DNA of 21,864 nt from a virus. Of this stretch, positions 2,494-21,336 are shown piece after piece. The notes under the pieces are model-generated. The model had not been told where the DNA came from. It did not search any database and saw only the letters and a list, made by a program, of their open reading frames with translations. Both the position numbers and the translations under genes were made by a program. The stretch lies in IMG/VR virus record IMGVR_UViG_3300046009_012299, positions 1 through 21,864 of that record; one strand, 5' to 3'. Positions within the stretch are counted from its first letter, which is position 1. Each line of letters starts with the position of its first letter.

Positions 2494-4857
2494 TTATGAT
2501 GTTCTGGTAGCACTTTTCTCCATTTTAGTGATTATTTCTGTACCATCTACATATAATTTTATAGGGCGATTTGATATTCCTGTTATAGCTGTTTTAACTT
2601 CATTAAGTGCCGTTATCATTGGAGTTAAATCAACATCTCCGGATAAATTAAGTGCACCTTTAGGGAATGATGTAACATCATCACCTTTAAATAGATTAGT
2701 ACCCGCTATTACAGTATCTTGATTATTTAATGCTATGGGTCCTTTTGGTGTAATAAGTGTTCTGGCTCCATATCCAACCATATCATCAGAAAGTAGTGCT
2801 GCTCCTCCACCTAGTAATCCACCAGCAATAGCTCCGATAGCAGTTCCTATTACAGGAAAAGCACTACCTAGCATTGCTCCTGATGCTGCTCCGCCTAATA
2901 TTCCAGCACTAACATTTAATCCTTTAGCTAAATCTTCATTACCAGCTTCAGATGCTTCTGAAGCAGCATATCCAAGACCTAAAGAAGCTAATATACCAGC
3001 AATACCCCCTTTTGTTACCATTCCTTTTCCTATTCCTCCTTTTGGAGCTTTAGTAAATCTACCTGTTTTAGGATCTCTGTATCTATTTGCTTTAGAGTCA
3101 AATACGGGACCACCTTTTTTACTTCCTCCTCCACCCCCAAAAAAACCTCCACCTCCTCCTCCACCACCAGCAACAGAAAAATCTTTAGTAATCATTGGAT
3201 TAATGTAGGTACCTTTAAGAAGTGATTTACCTATAACATATACTAAAGCACCTACTGTTGCTAGAGATGCTGCTCCTCCTAGTGCTGAGCTTGCGTTTTC
3301 TCCTAGTATTTTTTTAAATCCTTCCCCTATTTTTCCAACAAACCCAAACATTTTTCCTATAATATCTAATCCTTTACTTAATGATTCTATAAAGGCACTC
3401 ATAGGACCAGTTACTAAATTACCAACAAGATCTTGTAATTTAAGAATAGCTTGGTTAAATTTATCTTGTATATCTTGTCTTTTTTGGGCTTCGTCTGCTT
3501 CTTCTTTAGTTATTTGTGCTAAAGATTTACCTTGTTCTTGAGCAATTTTTTGTTTTCTTAACTGATCAGCTAATTCATCAGCTGTTAATCCAACAGCTTC
3601 AGCAATAGCTTTCTTTTGTAGAACATTCATTCTATCAAATTCAGCTAAACTACCTACTTGAGAAAATAGTTCTTGTGCTGCTGTAACTTGATCACCTGCT
3701 AAAGCAGCTGCTCTAGCTCTTTCTAGATTAAGTTGTTTACCAGTTAATAACTCTGCTTTTAATTCATTCTCAATTGATGTTTCAAAATTAAGAAGTGCTT
3801 CTCCTTGCTTTGATGTTTGTTCTAAAGAAGTACCTAATGCTTTAGTAGCAACTACTGCTTTAACTATAGCAGGAGGACTATTTTGTAAATTAGAGGCTAA
3901 AATACCAGATACTTTAGCTGCTTCAGCCATTGTTGCTCTAAATGGAACCGCCTTTCCAAGTTGGTTTCTTGCAGCAACAAAAGCACCAACCATTTCATCA
4001 TTAACTTTTTCTGATGATTTTCCTGTTAATAATGATAATTTATATATTCCTGCTGCTTCTTCACCTGTTAACTTAAATTGCTTAGTTAACATTATCTGGG
4101 TCTCTAGAGCATCTTTTGAATATTCAGATACAAATCCAGTAGCAGCATTTAATTCATTTGTTGCATCAGCTGCGTTTTGTAAAGTAAAATTAAGATTATC
4201 TGATGTTTGGGCAGCAGCAACTAATTCTTTAGTGTATCTGTTGGCGTTATCAACACCATATCCTAAATTTTTACCTAGATCAACTGATACTTTATTAAAG
4301 CGTAATCCAGAGTCAATAATTGCTTTAAATAAACCTGCTATACTAAATAACTTTGATGCAGATTCGTAGATATTTTTAAACTCGTGATCTAGATATCCAA
4401 GTAGGGTTCGTTGTTTCTTTCTTTCTTCATTATTTTTCTTTTCGGTTTCTGCTACATTAGAAAGAGTTCTTAGATAATCTAATAGTGATTCATTTAATTG
4501 CTGTTGTAATAAATTATCTTGTAATTGAAGAGTAAGTGAATCTTTTTGGGCTTTTAATTTAGCATCATATTTTTTATTAAGTTGTTGATTAATATCTAAT
4601 AACTTATATTGTAATTTATTTTGGTCAAGACCTAATCTTCTATTTTCTGTTTGGGCTTTTCTAAGAGCAGCTGATGTTTTTTTAGTAACATCTTCACCTT
4701 TTTCAAGGCTACCTATTATACCATTAATTTCAGTACTAGTTACAGCAAGCTGCTTATTTAGATTATTTTGAATCTGTTTAGAAATATCATCTATAACTTC
4801 CTCAAGATTATCTAAATCTTCACTAAGTTTTTTAATTATTTGTGGATCAGTAGCCAT
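2494..4857 (-). CDS. Tail tape measure protein (787 aa)
   Basis: Tape measure proteins set tail length and pass through the tube at DNA ejection. The first ~160 residues are strongly coiled-coil (many Gln, Lys, Glu, Leu). A long Ala-rich helical region follows to about 480. A hydrophobic segment lies near 520-545 (ASSALGGAASLATVGALVYV), then a poly-Gly stretch (nine Gly in a row, then FF and five more), a basic NRYRDPKTGRFTK motif, and Gly/Ala hydrophobic segments around 605-690. The C-terminal part has MVGYGARTLITPKGPIALNN and DTVIAGTNLFKG, typical of tape measures in similar phages. It follows the gp26-like and chaperone-like frames, the usual order. At about 1.5 angstrom per residue the tail would be roughly 115-120 nm, which is an estimate. 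It has its own hairpin and ATATTTAT octamer upstream. Confidence 0.85.
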   Translation of the reverse strand: MATDPQIIKKLSEDLDNLEEVIDDISKQIQNNLNKQLAVTSTEINGIIGSLEKGEDVTKKTSAALRKAQTENRRLGLDQNKLQYKLLDINQQLNKKYDAKLKAQKDSLTLQLQDNLLQQQLNESLLDYLRTLSNVAETEKKNNEERKKQRTLLGYLDHEFKNIYESASKLFSIAGLFKAIIDSGLRFNKVSVDLGKNLGYGVDNANRYTKELVAAAQTSDNLNFTLQNAADATNELNAATGFVSEYSKDALETQIMLTKQFKLTGEEAAGIYKLSLLTGKSSEKVNDEMVGAFVAARNQLGKAVPFRATMAEAAKVSGILASNLQNSPPAIVKAVVATKALGTSLEQTSKQGEALLNFETSIENELKAELLTGKQLNLERARAAALAGDQVTAAQELFSQVGSLAEFDRMNVLQKKAIAEAVGLTADELADQLRKQKIAQEQGKSLAQITKEEADEAQKRQDIQDKFNQAILKLQDLVGNLVTGPMSAFIESLSKGLDIIGKMFGFVGKIGEGFKKILGENASSALGGAASLATVGALVYVIGKSLLKGTYINPMITKDFSVAGGGGGGGGFFGGGGGSKKGGPVFDSKANRYRDPKTGRFTKAPKGGIGKGMVTKGGIAGILASLGLGYAASEASEAGNEDLAKGLNVSAGILGGAASGAMLGSAFPVIGTAIGAIAGGLLGGGAALLSDDMVGYGARTLITPKGPIALNNQDTVIAGTNLFKGDDVTSFPKGALNLSGDVDLTPMITALNEVKTAITGISNRPIKLYVDGTEIITKMEKSATRTS

Positions 4858-4884: not shown

Positions 4885-4911
4885 AAAAGCGCCTATTTTT
4901 TAGGCGCCTTT
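4885..4911 (-). terminator. Intrinsic terminator-like hairpin between chaperone frame and tape measure
   Basis: On the coding strand the arms are AAAGGCGCCTA and TAGGCGCTTTT around a loop of five A, pairing over 11 positions with one mismatch and followed by TTTTAATATT. The stop codon TAG of the upstream frame lies in the second arm. A GC-rich stem plus a T tail in an otherwise AT-rich region is typical of a Rho-independent terminator; it may also insulate or attenuate tape measure expression. Confidence 0.65.
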
Positions 4912-5081
4912 ACTGTGTATGTCGGTTGTTTTGTAGGAGCTATGTCCGGCTTTTTTACATCTTTACCAGACTTATTTTTTAACATGTTTTGTTGTTTTTC
5001 TGCTTCTTCACGTTGTTTATCAAAATGTTCTTTTAATAAATTATAAGTGAAAAGACGCAACCATACAGGCATATTGTACAC
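4893..5081 (-). CDS. Tail assembly chaperone-like protein, probably expressed by frameshift from the gp26-like gene
   Basis: The shortest reading is a 62-residue ORF from a GTG at 5081, with MPVWLRLFTYNLLKEHFDK and then a Lys/Gln-rich charged tail. The same frame, however, is open upstream to 5195 and there reads PDYRIYLFRQIHEIVFNG and GGYDWDTVYNMP, a coherent aromatic/helical sequence with no ATG. The GTG therefore falls inside what looks like one domain. The frame overlaps the end of the gp26-like gene in the +1 frame, and the tape measure gene follows. That geometry matches tail assembly chaperone pairs such as lambda G/GT, where the second frame is made only as a fusion. A +1 shift would give a 332-residue fusion. 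Non-ATG initiation or a sequencing indel in the T7 run are alternatives. The stop codon lies in a terminator-like hairpin. Confidence 0.7.
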   Translation of the reverse strand: MYNMPVWLRLFTYNLLKEHFDKQREEAEKQQNMLKNKSGKDVKKPDIAPTKQPTYTVKAPKK

Positions 5082-5195
5082 GGTGTCCCAGTCGTACCCA
5101 CCATTACCATTAAATACTATTTCGTGAATTTGTCTAAATAAATAAATTCTATAATCAGGCGTCAGGCCAAAAAAAGTTAAGAGATACTGGTATTG
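5082..5195 (-). other. Candidate +1 frameshift region between gp26-like gene and downstream chaperone frame
   Basis: The downstream frame is open from 5195 (directly after a TAG at 5198-5196) and overlaps the gp26-like gene to its TGA at 5157-5155. Two shift sites are plausible. One is a run of seven T on the coding strand (5175-5169, codons TTT TTT TGG), where P-site tRNA-Phe could slip +1 to TTT GGC. The other is the slow stop context GCC TGA T at 5160-5154. Both give a fusion of 332 residues, because the total depends only on the frame change. A -2 slip on the T run is also formally possible. No ATG exists in the downstream frame before 5074. Confidence 0.55.
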
Positions 5196-5892
5196 CTATA
5201 CCCTCCCCTGTATAATCTTCATCCTGCGGCACATATGTCAAATTAATATCTGGGGAGATTTGATTGTAGTATTCGCGTAATGATCTAGCATCTCTAGCCA
5301 TTAAATAATTATCTACGAAGTCACGAATATCTTTTTGATCGCGTTTGCCTTCAACAGATGTAATCATATGCTTTAAACGTGTAGTAGAATCTACAGTTAC
5401 GTTTGGATTTACTTTTTGCATACCTTTAACTTCAGCCTCAATCTTTTGCTCATCCCCATGTGTAAATAACTTAAATGTAACGTTATTTTTTGAATGAGGT
5501 AAAGTAAAACTAAATTCATTTACACCACGTTTAAATAACGATGTGTCTACTACTTTATCTTCTAACGTAGACAAATCAGCAGTGTATTCTTTATCATTAA
5601 AATCAAACTTATAATCTTTACCGTATCCTAAAATACGAGCAGCAACTAATACTGCATTTTTATCACCAATTAGTAATTCATTATAATCAATTGGTGTGAT
5701 GATTAATGCTTGTAATAACTTATCAATTACAGTACCTTGACGAATGAAGTTGGTATTGGTAAGGATATCTTCTTCCTTAGCCGTCATGTACTTCATTTCA
5801 ATTTCTCCTTTAGCTAGTGGAGATGTCTCAGGATACAGTAAACCTTTCGATGGAAGCGAAACAATCTCTGTTGGAACTTTTAATTCAGCCAT
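5155..5892 (-). CDS. T4 gp26-like baseplate hub / tail assembly protein (245 aa)
   Basis: The N-terminus reads MAELKVPTEIVSLPSKG with GLLYP, then EIEMKYMTAKEEDILTNTNF, which is the hallmark of the T4-like gp26 baseplate family (T4_baseplate). After it come IDKLLQALI, a LLIGDKNAVLVAARILGYG segment, a beta-rich middle and a helical part with KDIRDFVDNYLMARDARSLR. It ends with SLNFFWPDA. The length of 245 is normal for the family. In T4, gp26 is assigned to baseplate hub assembly. Its place immediately before an overlapping out-of-frame ORF and the tape measure suggests a tail assembly chaperone role instead of, or as well as, a structural one. The start has an A/T-rich leader and an ATATTTAT octamer 22 bases upstream. 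Confidence 0.82.
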   Translation of the reverse strand: MAELKVPTEIVSLPSKGLLYPETSPLAKGEIEMKYMTAKEEDILTNTNFIRQGTVIDKLLQALIITPIDYNELLIGDKNAVLVAARILGYGKDYKFDFNDKEYTADLSTLEDKVVDTSLFKRGVNEFSFTLPHSKNNVTFKLFTHGDEQKIEAEVKGMQKVNPNVTVDSTTRLKHMITSVEGKRDQKDIRDFVDNYLMARDARSLREYYNQISPDINLTYVPQDEDYTGEGIAIPVSLNFFWPDA

Positions 5893-5950: not shown

Positions 5951-7996
5951 CTATATAAAGTTTTGTATATATTCTAAATATGTAGGCTTTCTACTCGATA
6001 ACCCAACTCTTCTATCATCTGGTTTAGCAGGTGGGTCGTAAGGCTCAGCATATTTAGTTGCGCCGCGTCCAGTAACAACATTATATCCTTTTACACTTCC
6101 TACTTTTAATGAAGTTACTGGGTATATTGTTGGGTCAGTTTCATCTGGTTTGTATGGGATTCCTCCTGTTATTCCATCATATATAAAGCCACTGCGTCCT
6201 TCTAGGATATATTTTCCAACAAGTGGACTTTCTCTATCAAGCCTAGTAAAATCATAGGCATCATACTTAATAATTTTTTGATTATTATCATTATTAGTTA
6301 AAATAAGATGCAATAAATTACTATTTTTTCTGTATGGTGGAGCAACAGTAAGAGAATCAACAAATGTACTATATTTAAATGCGCTAGAATTTCTATTATT
6401 TGAACTTCTTACATTATCTAATTCTGTTTTATCAAGTACTTTTGGATCAGAATTTAAACCAGGAATACTCCCTTCACTTAGTTTACTCTCTATAGTTTTA
6501 ATTGGATTTTTTGATAGATATGTATTTTCAGGATTATATACTTGATTAAATTTTGCAAATGGTCCAGGTACACCATTATTAAGTGGGGTACCTGTTGCTA
6601 GTGTATTTTTAGGTGCTGTTGGATCCTTATCTTGTTTATAAGGAATACCACCATTAGGGAATTCATTTTCAACATCTAAATTAGTACTGTCAAATGTAAG
6701 ATCTAATATTCCCTCTCCTACATTATCTAAATATTCTTTTTGTGGATTATATTCCTGATAGAATTTTTCAGGAGCTCCAGGATTAAAATCTGCATTAGGG
6801 GTACCAGTTACTCGTTTTGGATACCTTGTAGGATCTTTATCTTGTTTGTAAGGAATACCACCATTAGGAAGTTTATTTTCAACATCTAGATTAGTATTAG
6901 CTACAGTAGATATTAATTTACCTTCACTATTGTTTGAAATTTCATCTAGATATGTATTTTGTGGTTCGTAACTATGTTTAAATTTACTAAATGGACCTGG
7001 ATTAGATCTAGTAGTAGGAGTTCCTGTAACTGTTTCTGGGTATAATGTTGGGTCTTTATCTTCTTTATAAGGAATACCTCCATCTACTCTAGAGTTTTCA
7101 ACATCTAAATTAGTATTAGCAACTGTACTTCTTAATCGGCCTCTTCCTCTAATAGGATTATTTATTAAATAAACATTTTCAGGATTAAATGTTTGTTTAA
7201 ATTTATTAAAGGGACCTGGATTGGATTTAGTAGTAGGAGTACCAGTTATATACTGGGGGTATGATGTTGGGTCTTGAAAAGAAAGAAGAGATTCAATGTT
7301 AGAAAGATCAAATATGTTTTCTATCTTACTATATCCTGCGATTCTTGTATATGCTTCTAAATAGGTACTATTAGGAATAAAATCTTGAGAAAAGTTACGA
7401 GCAGGACCAGGATTAATAGGAATAGAATTACCTTCGCCAGGAAGTACTTTTAATACTGGTGCCCCTGTAACTAGAGGACCATATTGTGTAATAGTATCTG
7501 ATCTGCGAAAATTATTTCCTGGTAGTGGGTTTTCTAGATCAAGATATGAAGAATCAAATCCAACACGTAATAAAGAATATTCTTTATTTTGATGTGTTTT
7601 TAAATAAGTACTATCAGGAAAGAATTTAGGTACATATTGTTTAGGAGCTCCTGGATTAGCATCTTTATTAGGAGTTCCAGTATTTGTTTCAGGATATGAT
7701 GTTATAGTTCCAGGAAAAGTAGAAAGAGATTCAAAGTTAGAAAGTTCAAATACTTTTTCTATCTTACTATATCCTACAGTTCTTTTATATGTTTCTAAGT
7801 AAGTATTAGTAGAAATAAAATCTTGAAAAAAGTTACGAGCCGGACCTGGATTAATAGAGGTAGTTCCATTAGCGGTTGGTGTTCCTGTAACTAGAGGGCC
7901 ATACTGTGTAATAGTATCTAACCTAAACAATCCAGTAGGGTCGGAATTTTCTAGGTCTAGATTTGTTATTTTAAATGAATTTAATAAATCTCCCAT
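5951..7996 (-). CDS. Tandem-repeat structural protein of unknown function (681 aa, seven ~72-residue units)
   Basis: I do not recognise a family. Residues ~11-495 consist of seven diverged copies of a unit that carries, in order, an (N/Y)LD(V/L)EN motif, GGIPYK.DKDPT (in later copies), TGTP, NPGP or NPGA, then F..Y.P..TYL. The TGTP motifs start at residues 37, 106, 177 (TGAP), 251, 324, 397 and 468, a period of 69-74. Units 1 and 3 share an extra segment (DTITQYGPLVTG and GYSKIE with FELSN/FDLSN), so a pair of units was duplicated once. Residues ~525-620 form a non-repeat domain with LLHLILTNNDNNQK. A decayed GGIPYK unit lies near 611, and the end is PTYLEYIQNFI. No signal peptide or membrane segment. 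It sits between tail tube and gp26-like genes as its own unit, with terminator and octamer upstream, so a tail or baseplate role is likely but inferred. Confidence 0.85.
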   Translation of the reverse strand: MGDLLNSFKITNLDLENSDPTGLFRLDTITQYGPLVTGTPTANGTTSINPGPARNFFQDFISTNTYLETYKRTVGYSKIEKVFELSNFESLSTFPGTITSYPETNTGTPNKDANPGAPKQYVPKFFPDSTYLKTHQNKEYSLLRVGFDSSYLDLENPLPGNNFRRSDTITQYGPLVTGAPVLKVLPGEGNSIPINPGPARNFSQDFIPNSTYLEAYTRIAGYSKIENIFDLSNIESLLSFQDPTSYPQYITGTPTTKSNPGPFNKFKQTFNPENVYLINNPIRGRGRLRSTVANTNLDVENSRVDGGIPYKEDKDPTLYPETVTGTPTTRSNPGPFSKFKHSYEPQNTYLDEISNNSEGKLISTVANTNLDVENKLPNGGIPYKQDKDPTRYPKRVTGTPNADFNPGAPEKFYQEYNPQKEYLDNVGEGILDLTFDSTNLDVENEFPNGGIPYKQDKDPTAPKNTLATGTPLNNGVPGPFAKFNQVYNPENTYLSKNPIKTIESKLSEGSIPGLNSDPKVLDKTELDNVRSSNNRNSSAFKYSTFVDSLTVAPPYRKNSNLLHLILTNNDNNQKIIKYDAYDFTRLDRESPLVGKYILEGRSGFIYDGITGGIPYKPDETDPTIYPVTSLKVGSVKGYNVVTGRGATKYAEPYDPPAKPDDRRVGLSSRKPTYLEYIQNFI
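6512..7966 (-). repeat. Seven ~216-bp diverged tandem repeats in the 681-aa gene
   Basis: This is the DNA region coding residues ~11-495. Units have a period of 69-74 codons, marked by TGTP and NPGP motifs. Units 4-7 are most alike; units 1 and 3 are a longer matched pair. Divergence at DNA level indicates an old expansion. Confidence 0.85.
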
Positions 7997-13097: not shown

Positions 13098-15395
13098 TTA
13101 TTTGCTTTGTAATAAATATTTTAATTCGTTTATCTGATTTTGTTGTTCTTTAATTGCTTCAATAAGTACGCCTACTATATTACCATACGCTACACTATAA
13201 TTTCCTTTATTATCTTGTTGTACTACTTCAGGTAATATATTAAGTACTTCTTGGGCAATCACACCTACTTTACGAGATTTATCTTCAATATCATTACGAT
13301 TGTAATAAACACCACGAAGAGAAGTTACTTTATCTAAGGCATTAGTAATTGTTTCTACATTATCTTTAACACGAGCATCTGAGAAGGCGATTACATCTGA
13401 TGTAGCTCGGATATCTCCTGTTACATCTAAAGCGTATGCTGGTGAAGTTGTGCCTATACCAACACTACCTCCTCCAAGTATTGTTACTCTAGTACCACCA
13501 TTTGTAACTAATTTTAATGAAGCATTATTAGCTTGATCAATAAAAAATTCATTACTTGCAGCGGGTACATAAATTCTACCTCCATTATTATTAGCTGAGT
13601 CTCCAAAATAGGCAGCATAACTATTATTTACTTTTATATTGCCTCCTACTACATGGAGTCTTTCTGTAGGAGCTGTAGTACCTATACCAATACTACCTCC
13701 TGCAGGTTGTAAATTTAAAGCGTTTGTATTATAAATATATTTTAATAAGTTATTACCGGCCGTACCATAGAAATTTATAGTATCTGCGGAATCATATCTT
13801 GATTCAATATCAAAATAATAAGTGGCTGGTGATGTTGCTGTAGATAATCTAAGTTTTACACCATTTCCTTGTACGTCTAATTTTGTAGCTGGGGAAGTAG
13901 TGTTTATACCTACATTTCCATTAGTATTAATATTTGCATATGTAGTACCACCACCTCTGCTTCTAAAATAATGATTTGTGTTATCATAGTAGTTACCAGG
14001 ATCTGAAGCATTTCCTATATACATGGCAACGTTACCTGCTGGTTCGTATATTCTATTATAGAGAGAATCTCTATCCGCAAATAGAGAGCTAGCTGAGCTA
14101 GAAGCAAATCCTAAACTTCCAGAAATTTGTAATCTATATTGTGGGTTAGAAGTACCTACACCTAAGTTAGTTCCATCAAATATTAAATTAGCTTCAGCAT
14201 TTATCGTTGATGCATTAACAGATGTAATAACTCTATTATCACCTGAGTTTGTATATGAAGTAATACCTGCGCTTGCTCCTGTAGTTCCTTGGGCTCCAGT
14301 AGCACCTTGTGTACCGGTTCCCGTAGCACCAGTTGCGCCTTGGGCTCCAGTAGCACCTTGAGTTCCAGTACCAGTTGCACCAGTTGCGCCTTGAGCACCT
14401 GTTCCTCCAGTAGCACCTTGAGCACCTGTTCCTCCAGTAGCACCTTGAGCACCCGTTCCTCCAGTAGCACCTTGAGCACCTGTTCCTCCAGTAGCACCTT
14501 GAGCACCCGTTCCTCCGGTTGCGCCTTGAGCACCAGTAGCTCCTTGCAGACTTAAATTTGATCTATATCTAATATTTCCACTAGCATCAGCAACAACAAC
14601 ATTAGTTTCTGTTGATCCTACTGGGATGTTTGAAAAAGCTAATGAACCTGTTATACTTACGGATCCAGTAAACTGGTGAGTATTAGCTATAAGACTTCCA
14701 AAACGAGTAGAACCAGTTATAAAGCTTTGAGATGAAGTTATTGTTTGGGCTACAATTGTAGTTACCGTTAGTGTATTTCTTACATTAAAATTATCTGCTG
14801 AAGATGCTGTATTTGCGAATGTAGCATATGATGCTGAGGTAGCGTTTGCTGCTAATGTAGCAAATGAAGCTGTATTAGCATTTAATGCACGTGATGCCGT
14901 TACTGCATTTGCAGCAATTGATGCTGAGGTAGCGTTTGCTGCTGATGTAGCAAATGAAGCAGAAGTTGCACTAGCAGCAGATGTAGCGAATGAAGCAGAA
15001 GTTGCACTTGCCGCTAATGTAGCAAATGACGCGGTATTGGCATTTAAAGCGCGAGAAGCAGTTACTGCGTTATCTGAAATTGAAGCAGTAATAGCAAATG
15101 AAGCAAATGATGCGGTATTGGCATTAAGTGCCCGAGATGCAGTTACTGCATTTGTTGCAATTGAAGCTGAAGTAGCTGAAGCTGCACTTGTTGCAAATGA
15201 AGCAGAAGTGGCATTAGCAGCAGATGTAGCAAATGAAGCAGATATAACATTATTAGCCCAACTCGCAGTACCAAACAAAGAACCAGTAAATCCTTGTGTA
15301 ACTACTAATGATCCAGTAATCACTGCATTTCCTGTTTGTGTATAGGAACCACTTATTCTCAACGAACTTGTAATAAATCCACTATCTATTAACAT
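13098..15395 (-). CDS. Tail fibre/spike with Ala-Ser repeats, collagen-like stretch and C-terminal S74 chaperone domain (765 aa)
   Basis: Domains in order. Residues 1-50 are a head domain with [15 protein letters not shown]. Residues 51-200 are Ala/Ser/Thr repeats ([25 protein letters not shown]). Residues 285-374 are collagen-like Gly-X-Y, including five exact GATGGTGAQ units (291-335). Residues 400-660 are beta-helical with four copies of a GIGTTSP...LDVxG motif (near 412, 496, 570, 646). Residues 668-765 are a peptidase S74 intramolecular chaperone. In that family a Ser and a Lys five residues later release the chaperone after trimerisation; here FSDARVK gives Ser672 and Lys677, so it should be active. 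[16 protein letters not shown] and a terminal coiled coil complete the domain. The mature protein is probably a trimeric receptor-binding fibre. It heads the unit 15395-11713, with an octamer 21 bases upstream. Confidence 0.9.
13112..13119 (-). promoter_or_regulatory. ATATTTAT octamer overlapping the end of the S74 fibre gene
   Basis: Coding-strand context AAAATATTTATTACA; it encodes KYLL near the fibre's C-terminus and ends 15 bases before the 105-aa gene's ATG. It could be coding coincidence, but the spacing equals that at other gene starts. Confidence 0.3.
14391..14525 (-). repeat. Five tandem 27-bp repeats coding GATGGTGAQ in the collagen-like stretch
   Basis: Five contiguous 27-base units within the S74 fibre gene encode residues 291-335; third-position variation is small (acctgtt versus acccgtt). 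Imperfect units continue to 14274, with two GTGTQ interruptions of the Gly-X-Y phase. In-frame units of 27 bases allow length change by slippage without breaking the gene. Confidence 0.9.
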
Positions 15396-17023: not shown

Positions 17024-18961
17024 TTAAGCTCTTGTATATGTTATTCTTATCGATAAAAGTTCTGCAGTTGCCGCTAAAGTATCAGCAGCATCCGCTGGGT
17101 TTCTAAAAGCTCTAAATTGTACGAAGTTACCTCCTGCAGGTGTACCTCCAATTGTAATTGCTGAAGTTGCTGCTGATATATTAACGTCATCATTCGCTTG
17201 GTTTGCATCTGTTACTTCTTGTGCGGTACCAAATGCTTGGTCTAATAAATCACTATCAGCGTATGCCCGCGCCGCTAATCCCCAACGTACACTGTTTGTT
17301 GATGCACTACCTGCTGCCCAATAGAATACTGCAGTTATAGTACCGCCATTATAATCAGATGGCATTGGCATTGCCCAGTTTGCAAATGTTTGACTGCCGT
17401 CTGGAAATCCTATATAATAAAAGTTAACTCTATTAGTTGGTGTTTCTGCTATTATTGGTGGATTAGATCCTGATGTAATGGAGGGCCATCCACCACCTGC
17501 TGTTAATATAATTTGACCTGTTACAGTACCACCCCCACCACCACCTGCATTTAAAGCAAAAGAAGCAGTTAAGGCATATGACGCTGAAGCTGCATTTTGG
17601 ATATATGATGCAGTATTAGAATTTAATGCTCGTGAAGCAGAAACTGCATTAAATGCAACTGAAGAACTCATTGCATATGATGCTGAAAGAGCATAAGAGG
17701 CAGATGTTATGCTTCCTAAAAGTACAGAAGCCGTTGCTGCATATGATGCTGAGACTGTAGGACCACCCCCTCCAGCATTTAAAGCGTGAGATGCGGTTAA
17801 AGCATATGAAGAGGAAGCAGCTAGTTGAACATATGAGGCCGTATTAGCGTTTAATGCCCTTGATGCAGTTACTGCATTTGCTGCTATTGAAGCTGAAGTA
17901 GCATTGGCGGCATTAGTAGTAAATGAAGCACTAACAGCATTTGATGCGTTTAATGCGTATGAAGCAGAAACTGCATTAAATGCAACTGAAGAACTCATTG
18001 CATATGATGCTGAAAGAGCATAAGAGGCAGAAACCACAGATCCTAATAATATTGAAGCAGTGGCAGCATATGATGCTGAAGAAGCATTACCTGATTGAGC
18101 AGTATAAGAAGCACTAAAGGCATAAGATGATGTTGTAGCGAAAGAGGCTGAAGTAGTAGTTCCTGGGGCTACAGTAAGTACATTACCGGCACTATCAACT
18201 GCTAAGTTAGCAGCTACCGTTCCTGTAAATGCACCGGAGCCTGAGTATCTATTAAATATAAATTGCCCAGAATGAAGATTAATATTAAAAATCTCAGCAT
18301 TACTACTAGCATTAGTTCCTCTTAATATTCTGAATCTATTCTGGAAAGTATCAAGCATTGAAGCTGAGGTGTATAATCCTCCACTTGCTTGTAATAATAT
18401 TTGTCCACCCTCACCATTATTATCTGCACTAAGTGTTCCTACAATTAATGTGCTTTCAGTAGATCCTATTGATGAGGTAGCTACTGCTAATATATCTGTT
18501 ATTACTACTCTTTGGTTAAGTGTATTAACAAATGATGATGTTTGAGCATTTGAAGCACTTAAAGCATATGAAGCAGAAGCTGCATTTTGGACATACGAAG
18601 CAGTATTAGCATTTAGTGCTCTTGAGGCAGTTACTGCGTTATCAGCAATTGAAGAAGTTATAGCAAAGGTAGCGTATGATGATGTGTTTGCATTTAATGC
18701 CCTAGAAGCAGTAACTGCATTAGCAGCTATTGATGCTGAAGTAGCATTTGCTGCTGATGTAGAGAATGAAGCAGAAGTAGCGCTTGCTGCTGATGTAGCA
18801 AATGAAGCAGAAGTAGCGCTTGCCGCTGATGTTGCGAATGAAGCAGAAGTTGCATTTCCGGAGAAAGAACTAGTTACACCGTTAGTAACAGTTAAAGAAC
18901 CAGTAATTATAACATTATTAAGAGCAATAAGGCCATTACGGGCCACAAATTCGTTTGGCAT
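17024..18961 (-). CDS. Long tail fibre with Ala/Ser-rich heptad-like repeats and distinct C-terminal domain (645 aa)
   Basis: Residues 1-35 carry a GSLTVTNGVTSSFSG head similar to that of the S74 fibre. Residues 36-150, 270-400 and 402-475 are Ala/Ser/Thr/Asn repeats ([39 protein letters not shown]), likely an extended trimeric shaft. Residues 150-265 form a beta-rich island with GQILLQASGG. Two poly-Gly breaks lie at 397-400 and 473-478. The last ~165 residues are a different domain, with WAMPMPSDYNGGTITAVFYW, RWGLAARAYADSD and a final LLSIRITYTRA strand, as seen at the tips of fibres in environmental phages. It lacks an S74 domain. It heads a unit with an octamer 42 bases upstream, and shares repeat modules with the S74 fibre gene. 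Confidence 0.85.
   Translation of the reverse strand: MPNEFVARNGLIALNNVIITGSLTVTNGVTSSFSGNATSASFATSAASATSASFATSAASATSASFSTSAANATSASIAANAVTASRALNANTSSYATFAITSSIADNAVTASRALNANTASYVQNAASASYALSASNAQTSSFVNTLNQRVVITDILAVATSSIGSTESTLIVGTLSADNNGEGGQILLQASGGLYTSASMLDTFQNRFRILRGTNASSNAEIFNINLHSGQFIFNRYSGSGAFTGTVAANLAVDSAGNVLTVAPGTTTSASFATTSSYAFSASYTAQSGNASSASYAATASILLGSVVSASYALSASYAMSSSVAFNAVSASYALNASNAVSASFTTNAANATSASIAANAVTASRALNANTASYVQLAASSSYALTASHALNAGGGGPTVSASYAATASVLLGSITSASYALSASYAMSSSVAFNAVSASRALNSNTASYIQNAASASYALTASFALNAGGGGGGTVTGQIILTAGGGWPSITSGSNPPIIAETPTNRVNFYYIGFPDGSQTFANWAMPMPSDYNGGTITAVFYWAAGSASTNSVRWGLAARAYADSDLLDQAFGTAQEVTDANQANDDVNISAATSAITIGGTPAGGNFVQFRAFRNPADAADTLAATAELLSIRITYTRA
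17633..17704. repeat. 72-bp exact direct repeat in the 645-aa fibre gene, copy A
   Basis: Identical base for base to 17960-18031, 327 bases away and in the same codon phase. It encodes part of the SASYALSASYAMSSSVAFNA shaft module. Confidence 0.9.
17960..18031. repeat. 72-bp exact direct repeat in the 645-aa fibre gene, copy B
   Basis: Second copy of the exact repeat at 17633-17704. The 327-base spacing is 109 codons, so recombination between copies would delete or add a whole shaft segment in frame. Confidence 0.9.
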
Positions 18962-19276: not shown

Positions 19277-19984
19277 TTATAAATTAAATCGTGATTTTTG
19301 TGCGTTGTAGTTTTGTAAAATTTCTGATGTTGAGAGAGTACGGTTATAAACTTGAATATTAGCTATGCTTCCATTAAGATATCTTCCACTACTAACCCTA
19401 GGATCACGACCTAATACTACTACAGAATTTGAATTATTTACAATTCCAGTACTTATTCCTGTACTAGTACCATACAAAGTTCCATTTATATACATTATTA
19501 TATTAGATGTATTAATAGTTCCTGCTAGAAAATACCAAGTATTATTATCTAAAATAGAAGATGCTATATTTTTCCAAGCTCCATTATCATTAACGTAAAA
19601 AGTTACTGTATTATTAGTATTACCATGCATTAACCAAACATTAGATGTCATGTCATCTAGAGAAAGAGTTGATTGGCCACAACCAGCACCTGTTAATAAA
19701 TCTCCATTTCTTTTTATCCACCAACAAACTGATAGTTGGTTTGTGTATTGGTAAAATGCTTGACCTGCTGTTGTTGTTGTATAATCATCAACGCCATCAA
19801 ACACAATACTTCCTCCATTAGCACTGTTGAAAGTAGGACTATTAGTTAAAGTACTATTACTATTATTCCCAGACATATCTCTCCAAGCAGTTCCACTACC
19901 AGGATAAGAATTTTTATCAGCAGCATCTAATGCTAATACTAATCCATTTGTTACTATTTTACCAAATGCATATTGTGTTGCCAT
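19277..19984 (-). CDS. LamG/concanavalin A-like lectin-fold protein, copy 3 (235 aa)
   Basis: Layout shared with the next two genes: an N-terminal GLVLALDAADKNSYPGSGTA segment, a W..MSGN linker, then a LamG-type jelly-roll beginning GGSIVFDGVDDYTTT. That domain continues with strands LSVCWWIKRNGD, WYFLAGTINTSNIIMYINGT and LNGSIANIQVYNRTLS, and the protein ends SEILQNYNAQKSRFNL. The 'G.I..FDG.DDY' opening and 'G.I...++YNR.LS..EI..NY' ending are typical of the Laminin_G_3 superfamily, which binds sugars or proteins. It is probably a virion surface lectin that helps the phage grip host or environmental glycans. It lies 3 bases after copy 2 and 3 bases before the 87-residue gene. Confidence 0.82.
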   Translation of the reverse strand: MATQYAFGKIVTNGLVLALDAADKNSYPGSGTAWRDMSGNNSNSTLTNSPTFNSANGGSIVFDGVDDYTTTTAGQAFYQYTNQLSVCWWIKRNGDLLTGAGCGQSTLSLDDMTSNVWLMHGNTNNTVTFYVNDNGAWKNIASSILDNNTWYFLAGTINTSNIIMYINGTLYGTSTGISTGIVNNSNSVVVLGRDPRVSSGRYLNGSIANIQVYNRTLSTSEILQNYNAQKSRFNL

Positions 19985-19987
19985 AAC

Positions 19988-20659
19988 TTATAATCCAAAT
20001 CTTGTTTTAGTTGCGTTATAATTTTGTTTTATTTCTGATGCTGAGAGTGCTCTGTTATATATTTTTGTTAATGAACAATTATAGTTTTGAGCAGCAGAAT
20101 TACTTATTGCACCATTTATAAAAACTGAATTCGTAGTGATTCTAACTGCACCGCTTTTTGCAGTAGTAGCAACCTCATTAAGATTATAGTATACTCTTAC
20201 TATAGAATTATCGTATGTTCCTACAATGTATGCCCACTGATTTAGTGGGACTATAATATTTGCGTGGGTACTTTCCCATCCCCCAGTTCTTTGCATCCAA
20301 ACTCCTAAAAGATTAGTACCTTCGCCCCAGTAATGAGATAAAATATACGAACCTTCTTTTCTTATTATATGCCCATTTGTGGAATTATTAATAGGATAAA
20401 CCCAAGATTCTAAAGTAAAATTATTAACTTGTAAAGTAGAGCTATTTGATATTTCAACATAATCATCAACTCCATCAAAAACAATACTTCCATTATTAGC
20501 ACTACTAAAAGTAGGACCATTAGTTAATATTCCGTTGTTACTATTACCAGATAGATCTGTCCAAGCGGTTCCACTACCTAAATAAGAATTCCTATCAGCA
20601 GCATCTAATGCTAATACTAATCCGTCTTGAATCATATCTGGTCCACCTGATATTCCCAT
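19988..20659 (-). CDS. LamG/concanavalin A-like lectin-fold protein, copy 2 (223 aa)
   Basis: Same architecture as its neighbours: GLVLALDAADRNSYLGSGTA, then DLSGNSNNGILTNGPTFSS, then a jelly-roll opening GSIVFDGVDDYVEIS. It continues with LQVNNFTLESWVYPINN, WAYIVGTYDNSIVRVYYN and the ending TKIYNRALSASEIKQNYNAT. This copy has the most canonical LamG core (FTLESWV, W.yIvGTYD). The loops differ from the other two, as expected if binding specificity diverged while the frame was kept. It starts 2 bases after copy 1's stop. There is no enzymatic motif, so a carbohydrate- or protein-binding role on the virion is inferred. Confidence 0.84.
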   Translation of the reverse strand: MGISGGPDMIQDGLVLALDAADRNSYLGSGTAWTDLSGNSNNGILTNGPTFSSANNGSIVFDGVDDYVEISNSSTLQVNNFTLESWVYPINNSTNGHIIRKEGSYILSHYWGEGTNLLGVWMQRTGGWESTHANIIVPLNQWAYIVGTYDNSIVRVYYNLNEVATTAKSGAVRITTNSVFINGAISNSAAQNYNCSLTKIYNRALSASEIKQNYNATKTRFGL

Positions 20660-20661
20660 AG

Positions 20662-21336
20662 TTATAAGCCGAAGCGTGATTTTTGTGCGTTATAGTTTTG
20701 TAGGATTTCTGATGCTGGGAGAGGACGATTATAATAATATACTGAAGCTATAGAAGAAGAAACATATACATTCTGTGCTCGTCCAATATATTCAATACTA
20801 AAAGATCCATTTACAGATCCTGTAGGTGTACAAGCAACTCCATTATTGTATATAGTAGCAATTCCAAATCTATCTACAACAAAACAAAAATCATTATATT
20901 TTTGTTCTAAAGAAAATGCAGGAGATAAAGGAAATAAAAAGCTATATGCTGATAATGATGCAGAAGTATTCCATATTATAAAGCGATTATTCCATTCTAA
21001 ATACATAGAATTTTGTGTAGTTCCTGCTGAGATTTCAGATATTCTAAAATAATTAGTTGATGAAGCAGTTATATTGGATTTAAATATGTATCTTAAAGTA
21101 AAACTACTAGTTAAAGGAATTGATTGACTTAAACTAATATAATCATTTACTCCATCTAATACAATACTACCTCCACTTTCAGTACTAAAAGTAGGACCAT
21201 TAGTTAAACTACCTGTATTACTACCCGCTAAGTTCTGCCAAATAGTACCAGAACCAGAATAAGAATTCCTATCAGCGGCATCTAATGCTAATACCAATCC
21301 ATCAGTAACTATTCTAGGTCCATTCCCAAACGCCAT
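20662..21336 (-). CDS. LamG/concanavalin A-like lectin-fold protein, copy 1 (224 aa)
   Basis: First of three tandem paralogues. The N-terminus GNGPRIVTDGLVLALDAADR is near-identical in style to the others, followed by NLAGSNTGSLTNGPTFSTES and a jelly-roll opening GSIVLDGVNDYISLS. Later strands include FTLRYIFKSNITASS, YNDFCFVVDRFGIATIYNNG and IASVYYYNRPLPASEILQNY. The ends of the three genes (coding for NYNA.K.RFGL) are also close at DNA level. It starts one base after the stop of the 59-residue gene. Role as for the neighbours: a probable surface lectin or adhesin, not catalytic by any visible motif. Confidence 0.83.
   Translation of the reverse strand: MAFGNGPRIVTDGLVLALDAADRNSYSGSGTIWQNLAGSNTGSLTNGPTFSTESGGSIVLDGVNDYISLSQSIPLTSSFTLRYIFKSNITASSTNYFRISEISAGTTQNSMYLEWNNRFIIWNTSASLSAYSFLFPLSPAFSLEQKYNDFCFVVDRFGIATIYNNGVACTPTGSVNGSFSIEYIGRAQNVYVSSSIASVYYYNRPLPASEILQNYNAQKSRFGL

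Follow-up and report, generated by a model that had tools for sequence, protein, structure and literature searches.

How the second of two overlapping reading frames comes to be translated, when it opens inside a gp26-like gene and offers no credible start of its own, is the question raised by this locus. It lies in a window of 21,864 nucleotides (the whole stretch of DNA analysed, IMG/VR virus record IMGVR_UViG_3300046009_012299), in which the gene order is sheath, tube, a 681-aa ORF, the gp26-like gene, the second frame, and a 787-aa ORF. The features on which the argument turns are these:

5155..5892, minus strand: gp26-like gene in the 0 frame, putative short chaperone form of 245 aa, stop TGA at 5157-5155
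4893..5171, minus strand: second frame as entered by the proposed +1 shift, with a gp51-like domain plus a basic tail, terminated by TAG at 4895-4893
5195-4893, minus strand: whole +1 open frame, 100 codons
5196..5198, minus strand: TAG closing the +1 frame upstream of the site, as seen in the reading frames
5164..5176, minus strand: proposed shift site C UUU UUU UGG CCU, near-invariant in 141 main-clade representatives
5175-5173 (or 5172-5170), minus strand: proposed P-site codon UUU, part of the shift site
5175-5169, minus strand: run of seven T (T7), read from the sequence
4893..5892, minus strand: predicted fusion protein of 332 aa, read through the shift
5201..5208, minus strand: purine-rich GGGGAGGG, codon-biased in the window clade
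5070..5081, minus strand: GTG 5081 and ATG 5072-5070, inside the conserved VYNMPVWLR block and not credible as starts
2494..4857, minus strand: probable tape measure protein, 787 aa, assigned by its position

The overlapping pair of ORFs is located between the tail tube and tape measure genes, as expected for a pair of the G/GT type. A tape measure protein is annotated at the equivalent place in Flavobacterium phage immuto, Listeria phage LIS04, and Bacillus phage SP-15, and the 787-aa ORF of the window gave no family match of its own. We consider that the pair is most probably made by a programmed +1 ribosomal frameshift yielding two tail assembly chaperones, with a probability of roughly 0.9; all the evidence for it comes from comparative sequence analysis and structure prediction, without peptide, ribosome-profile, or reporter data.

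The first-pass annotation of the window had described a +1 frame open from within the gp26-like gene (5195 to 4893) and a fusion of 332 residues; the reading-frame check bore out the former, and read-through of the shift gave the same length for the latter, as a prediction only. It had also reported no start ahead of GTG 5081 and an ATG at 5074. No start indeed precedes these two codons, which are the sole conventional ones in the second frame of the window, but the ATG is located at 5072-5070. Its objection that a start at GTG 5081 would split a conserved block was sound, with both codons falling inside VYNMPVWLR and the first helix encoded upstream of them.

Other genes of the window were recorded in passing. 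The 681-aa protein (5951-7996, minus strand), encoded between the tail tube and gp26 genes, is built of repeated units (TNLDVEN..GGIPYK..DKDPT.YP..VTGTP..NPGPF) and had no family match. Fibre-like proteins with collagen-like GATGAQ and TASFATSAA repeats are encoded at 13098-15395 and 17024-18961 (minus strand), the C-terminal end of the first one resembling, by eye, an S74 chaperone domain. Finally, three tandem paralogues of 223-235 aa each, with a LamG/concanavalin-type look by eye, occupy 19277-21336 (minus strand).

Conservation of the frame relation and the shift site

For the comparative analysis, 243 loci were clustered at 85% into 146 representatives, 141 of them in the main clade; aquatic metagenomes are over-represented in the collections, and many of the contigs are closely related. 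The first-pass annotation had proposed homologues as the test of the frame change and its site, and both were observed to be kept in all 146 representatives. Past the site, the +1 frame stays open for at least 67 codons in every one of them (median 90), against a median of only 3 codons for the -1 frame. The arrangement was kept in 80 IMG/VR loci at 73-100% identity, in 80 further loci reached with an alignment, mostly at 55-76% identity, and in loci seeded from a Microcystis phage at 43-61% identity, a set from which contigs cut at the junction were left out. Among isolates, it was found in Flavobacterium phage immuto, Microcystis phage Mel-JY01, Rhodothermus phage RM378, Streptococcus phage GXN1, Listeria phage LIS04, and Bacillus phage SP-15, whose hosts span several bacterial phyla, and a 484-kb uncultured phage carries it too. 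A search of genome contigs from immuto gp26 returned one metagenome-assembled genome with an identical site. When the second frame alone was used as seed, 72 loci were recovered, all 72 with the T7 site and all but one with the frame relation, the exception being a contig that ends 58 bases upstream. In the existing annotations of the isolates, the second frame is missed in LIS04 and started late in immuto and SP-15.

In one locus (L018, 765-3431), the second frame continues in frame into the tape measure gene, giving a fusion of ~890 aa, whereas the same second frame in locus L016 has a stop; either a real fusion or an assembly indel could account for this.

The four-codon form TTT TTT TGG CCT was present in 120 of the 146 representatives. 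The remaining forms included TTT CTT TGG, CTT TTT TGG, TTT TTT TAC, TTT CTT TAC, TTT TTT TTC, TTT CTA TTC (locus L084), TTC TTT CGT, TTT TTT CGT, TTT TTT CAC, and TTT TTT AGT, with CTT as second codon in immuto and others. What they all share is UUU (rarely CUU) with U or C as the next base, which would let the tRNA in the P site re-pair one base forward on UUU or UUC, and every observed variant conforms to a +1 site of the UUU_Y type (YUU, then U or C, with UUY in the +1 frame). The first-pass annotation had offered two slippery elements, the T7 run and the stop context GCC TGA T. The former agrees with the place of slippage favoured here, but the run itself is not needed, the conserved element being UUU (rarely CUU) plus U or C; the latter had to be abandoned, as most relatives have sense codons there and their stop a few codons later.

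The frame change is kept in variants without the seven-base run (TTTCTTT, CTTTTTT, TTTCTAT), which excludes a homopolymer artefact and answers the concern, also raised at first pass, that the number of T might be wrong (TTT CTT TGG, for example, keeps the frame relation). Homopolymer runs are error-prone, so a sequencing error or a broken gene had to be considered. The probability of either is negligible, given that hundreds of independent contigs and separately sequenced isolates share the frame relation, that it persists in non-homopolymer variants, and that both frames are under purifying selection. The same variants bear on slippage of the RNA polymerase along the T run, which would give a mixture of mRNAs. 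Most loci do have a T7 run, but the interrupted or shorter ones retain the frame change, and seven bases are few for slippage by the bacterial enzyme; we regard this explanation as very improbable. A shift of -2, with tRNA-Phe sliding back two bases from the second UUU, is the mode used by the tail chaperone pair of phage Mu (PMC3498833); T7 would permit it, and for the T7 form it cannot be fully excluded. However, a second codon CTT (immuto and others) or the sequence TTT CTA TTC of L084 would re-pair poorly backwards, while all variants fit re-pairing in +1. The direction of the shift is thus an inference, with -2 retaining only a slim chance.

The identity of the slipping codon is also inferred. 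The third base of the first Phe codon was T in 141 of 141 main-clade representatives, compared to 20% TTC among Phe codons elsewhere in the same genes, which favours the first codon as the one that slips, with the reservation that related sequences are not independent counts. The strongest bias in synonymous choice among all gp26 columns was found in the codon before the site and in the codons after it. For the latter (CCT, GAC, GCC), the bias is explained by double coding, an explanation that does not serve for the preceding codon, which ends in C in 112 of 141 representatives (the base at 5176 of the window and its equivalents) in AT-rich genes with 12% C at third positions. T almost never precedes TTT TTT, the base in that place being C, G, or A. 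A T there would create a -1 heptamer, so one reading is that a non-T base blocks -1 slippage, although this does not explain the preference for C over A. The site is not a canonical -1 heptamer (X_XXY_YYZ), and its product is in the +1 frame.

Two candidate stimulators were rejected. No conserved RNA structure was detected at the site (mean z -0.5 to -0.85, no consensus fold), which rules out such a structure as the main stimulator. Likewise, no Shine-Dalgarno-like sequence was found at the spacing of prfB, and stimulation of that kind was discarded: the purine-rich GGGGAGGG lies ~25 nt upstream, and its codon choice is conserved only in the clade of the window.

Selection and start codons in the second frame

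Codons 8-30 of the second frame, located past the 0-frame stop and before the internal Met, showed a pN/pS of 0.215 in the +1 frame, against 2.39 in the 0 frame and 1.17 in the -1 frame, and this block is, judging from these ratios, under purifying selection in the +1 frame. Across the invariant TTTTTTTGGCCT block, per-base variability moved from third positions of the 0 frame to third positions of the +1 frame. Several relatives have Leu, Phe, or Trp in place of the internal Met of NMP, and in the model of the second domain a first helix (residues 4-20), predicted with high confidence, precedes that Met.

The second ORF could also be a separate gene started within the overlap, at TTG, ATG, or another codon, perhaps by means of the purine-rich GGGGAGGG or through coupled termination and reinitiation. 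An ATG, GTG, or TTG is indeed available to the second frame in 83 of the 141 main-clade representatives, counting from the last stop of the +1 frame to ten codons beyond the site, the commonest candidate being a TTG at -11 (38 loci), and the homologous gp51 has an ATG in cyanophages, Rhizobium phage RL38J1, and Pseudomonas phage Cygsa01. In contrast, the other 58 representatives have none of the three codons in that interval, and no start position is conserved, which agrees with what the first-pass annotation had expected of homologues. Moreover, 25 main-clade representatives have a +1-frame stop at most 26 nt ahead of the 0-frame stop; in 22 of them the interval that remains contains no ATG, GTG, or TTG, which pins the frame change to about 20-26 nt. 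A separate gene would, in addition, leave the near-invariance of the shift site without a reason, and we hold it to be very unlikely. On comparative evidence alone, the second ORF thus appears to lack a usable start and to depend on the conserved site, as a +1 frameshift requires.

Relation to gp26 and gp51 of T4 and the cyanophages

The 0-frame protein of the window matched phrog_150 ('baseplate hub') with E=2.3e-8, and distant members did so with E down to 2.4e-25 (GXN1), whereas its score against PF12322 (T4_baseplate) was 21 bits, under the cut-off of 24.5. Sequence searches of the PDB gave nothing convincing, and NCBIfam returned no name. The gp26 part and the second domain were folded apart, as plain translations. 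The AF2 model of the former (pLDDT 93) retrieved phage baseplate hub models from BFVD, including the SP-15 baseplate hub subunit (E 3.6e-16), and its first match in the PDB by Foldseek was the HK97 tail assembly chaperone (2ob9), a weak one (E 0.54). With VIA-align over 350,542 chains, the best match was YqbN (Z 6.4, rmsd 4.0, 87 residues), which we take to be a tail chaperone of the XkdN type, followed by the HK97 tail assembly chaperone (Z 5.3, rmsd 4.3, 76 residues), the next chain reaching only Z 2.2. Values of 5-6 belong to a middling range in which common arrangements also occur. That two tail chaperones should top a search with a predicted model is notable, but a shared fold is no proof of function, and the chaperone role remains an inference; the phrog_150 and BFVD matches place the 0-frame protein in the T4 gp26/gp51 family.

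The second domain was modelled as three helices (pLDDT >90 over about residues 11-60). Its alignment to cyanophage gp51 by hhalign gave E values of 4.5e-7 and 1.3e-6 (probability 91-93%) over only about 45 residues, with a score of 38 against a maximum of 16 among 101 column-shuffled or reversed nulls, and 5 of 54 second-frame members matched phrog_634, the profile for the gp51 C-terminal domain, directly (best 1.3e-3). By these profile comparisons, the second frame is a homologue of cyanophage gp51. Foldseek and VIA searches with the second-domain model gave nothing convincing. Homology to the C-terminal extension of T4 gp51 is probable; with the single T4 gp51 sequence, hhalign did not align the second frame to its C terminus, so the link to T4 runs through phrog_150, phrog_634, and cyanophage gp51.

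Apart from this, Pfam DUF6760, of unknown function, was matched by 17 of 54 second-frame members (best E 7.6e-6) and may be the same second chaperone domain elsewhere.

PF12322 covers almost the full length of both gp26 and gp51 of T4 (E 8.8e-64 and 3.9e-52, respectively); the two proteins match phrog_150 as well, and on these matches they are paralogues. Of the 282 positions of the phrog_150 profile, gp51 reaches 280 and gp26 stops at 235; the stand-alone gp51 of cyanophages matches positions 241-278, that is, the end absent from gp26. Sullivan et al. had noted that the ~200 N-terminal residues of T4 gp51 are missing from the cyanophage protein (PMC3037559). Both T4 proteins have been reviewed as hub assembly chaperones, gp51 being required but absent from the particle (PMC3004832), and in Acinetobacter phage Stupor the T4-type gp26 and gp51 are annotated as 'tape measure protein assembly chaperone'.

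T4 thus has two separate genes where the window clade would have one gene and a frameshift. Cyanophages share with the window the gene order and a homologous second domain, but their second ORF is in the -1 frame and has its own ATG 5 nt past the stop. Their gp26 ends in NNT TTT TTC (a U_UUU_UUC heptamer) in 52 of 52 distinct tails, and the -1 frame is open from gp26 into gp51 (loci L253 and L258-L337). A -1 frameshift at this junction is likely from these sequences, and less certain than the +1 shift because a start codon is present.

Similar observations were made in three other phages. In Rhizobium phage IC12 (L254), gp51-like sequence extends upstream of the annotated ATG. IC12, Agrobacterium phage Atu_ph07 (L413), and Xanthomonas phage XacN1 (L088) have U_UUU_UUC or U_UUU_UUU near the end of gp26 and a chaperone-like ORF in the -1 frame.

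The simplest synthesis, by inference, is that gp26 is the short form and T4 gp51 a duplicated gene fixed as the long form. Extended to the whole T4 superfamily, gp26 and gp51 would be a single G/GT chaperone system whose long form is obtained in different ways: in the window clade and the Firmicutes/Rhodothermus relatives by a +1 shift at UUU_Y; in cyanophages and in phages of Rhizobium and Agrobacterium by a -1 shift at U_UUU_UUC, whether or not reinitiation contributes; in Cygsa01-like phages by translational coupling alone; and in T4 by duplication of the gene, with gp26 as the short form and gp51 as the long one. We lean towards this generalisation, with much less assurance than towards the +1 shift itself; if true, it would explain the apparent exception of T4 and give a job to gp51, the long-unexplained 'catalyst'.

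Proposed mechanism and comparison with known systems

In the proposed mechanism, most ribosomes would finish gp26 at TGA 5157 and release the short form. On AAC UUU UUU UGG CCU, some of them, with tRNA-Phe in the P site on UUU, would undergo a +1 movement of the mRNA, the tRNA re-pairing on the overlapping triplet, which is UUU here and UUC in some relatives, and translation in the +1 frame would then go on to 4893. This would yield a protein of 332 aa in which gp26 is followed by the three-helix gp51-like domain. If the analogy with lambda- and HK97-type chaperones holds, the short form would serve to coat the tape measure protein, and the long form, the rarer of the two, to recruit tube subunits or hub parts. 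The efficiency of the shift, the production of both forms with the long one rare, binding to the tape measure, and absence from virions are all inferred, with no proteomics or binding data. Sites of UUU followed by a pyrimidine are shift-prone in Escherichia coli, as found in older work.

Very probably, then, UUU-U close to the end of gp26 is a place of +1 slippage for a fraction of ribosomes in a large set of phages related to T4. The +1 shift inferred at first pass to join the gp26-like protein to a tail-chaperone-type domain is supported as the best explanation, without the fusion having been demonstrated, and the analogy with G/GT drawn there has gained a tie to T4 genes through the homology to cyanophage gp51. 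We found no earlier report of a gp26 frameshift in the literature searched; one cannot be excluded, since subscription papers were mostly outside its scope. For annotation, the consequence is that very many genomes have a missing or truncated second chaperone. For T4 gp51, which is essential, absent from virions, and of unknown function, a testable role is suggested, that of the long form of gp26.

Regarding known systems, the G-T frameshift is widely conserved in long-tailed phages 'except T4' (Atkins et al., 2016 review, PMC5009743), yet a very abundant aquatic group related to this exception of the reviews seems to have one, in the less usual +1 direction. The same review cites the G/T pair of the haloarchaeal myovirus HSTV-2 as very likely +1, a tail chaperone pair joined by the same kind of shift, although no sequence comparison was made. 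As in lambda gpG/gpGT and HK97-type phages (Xu et al. 2004; PMC5009743), two overlapping ORFs lie ahead of the tape measure gene, the second of them lacks a start, and the shift would take place late in the first; the N-terminal domain of the short form of the window also resembles the HK97 chaperone structure (2ob9), with a Z in the middling range. Unlike in those phages, the shift here would be +1 instead of -1, without an X_XXY_YYZ heptamer, and in a sequence of the gp26 family. At the level of the site, the closest parallels are influenza A PA-X (UCC_UUU_CGU), where UUU_C in the P site was established as a +1 site by mass spectrometry and mutants (PMC3498833), and bacterial prfB (CUU_UGA), in both of which the P-site tRNA slips from YUU to the overlapping UUY; the UUU_CGU of Streptococcus phage GXN1 is identical to that of PA-X. 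The gene, host, and product are different, and the A site of the phage sequences has no conserved stop or rare codon. UUU_Y, occurring naturally across phages of several phyla, would provide a clean +1 system without stop codon or obvious stimulator. Altogether, the pair looks like the T4-superfamily version of lambda G/GT, made by +1 here, by a probable -1 shift in cyanophages, and from two genes in T4.
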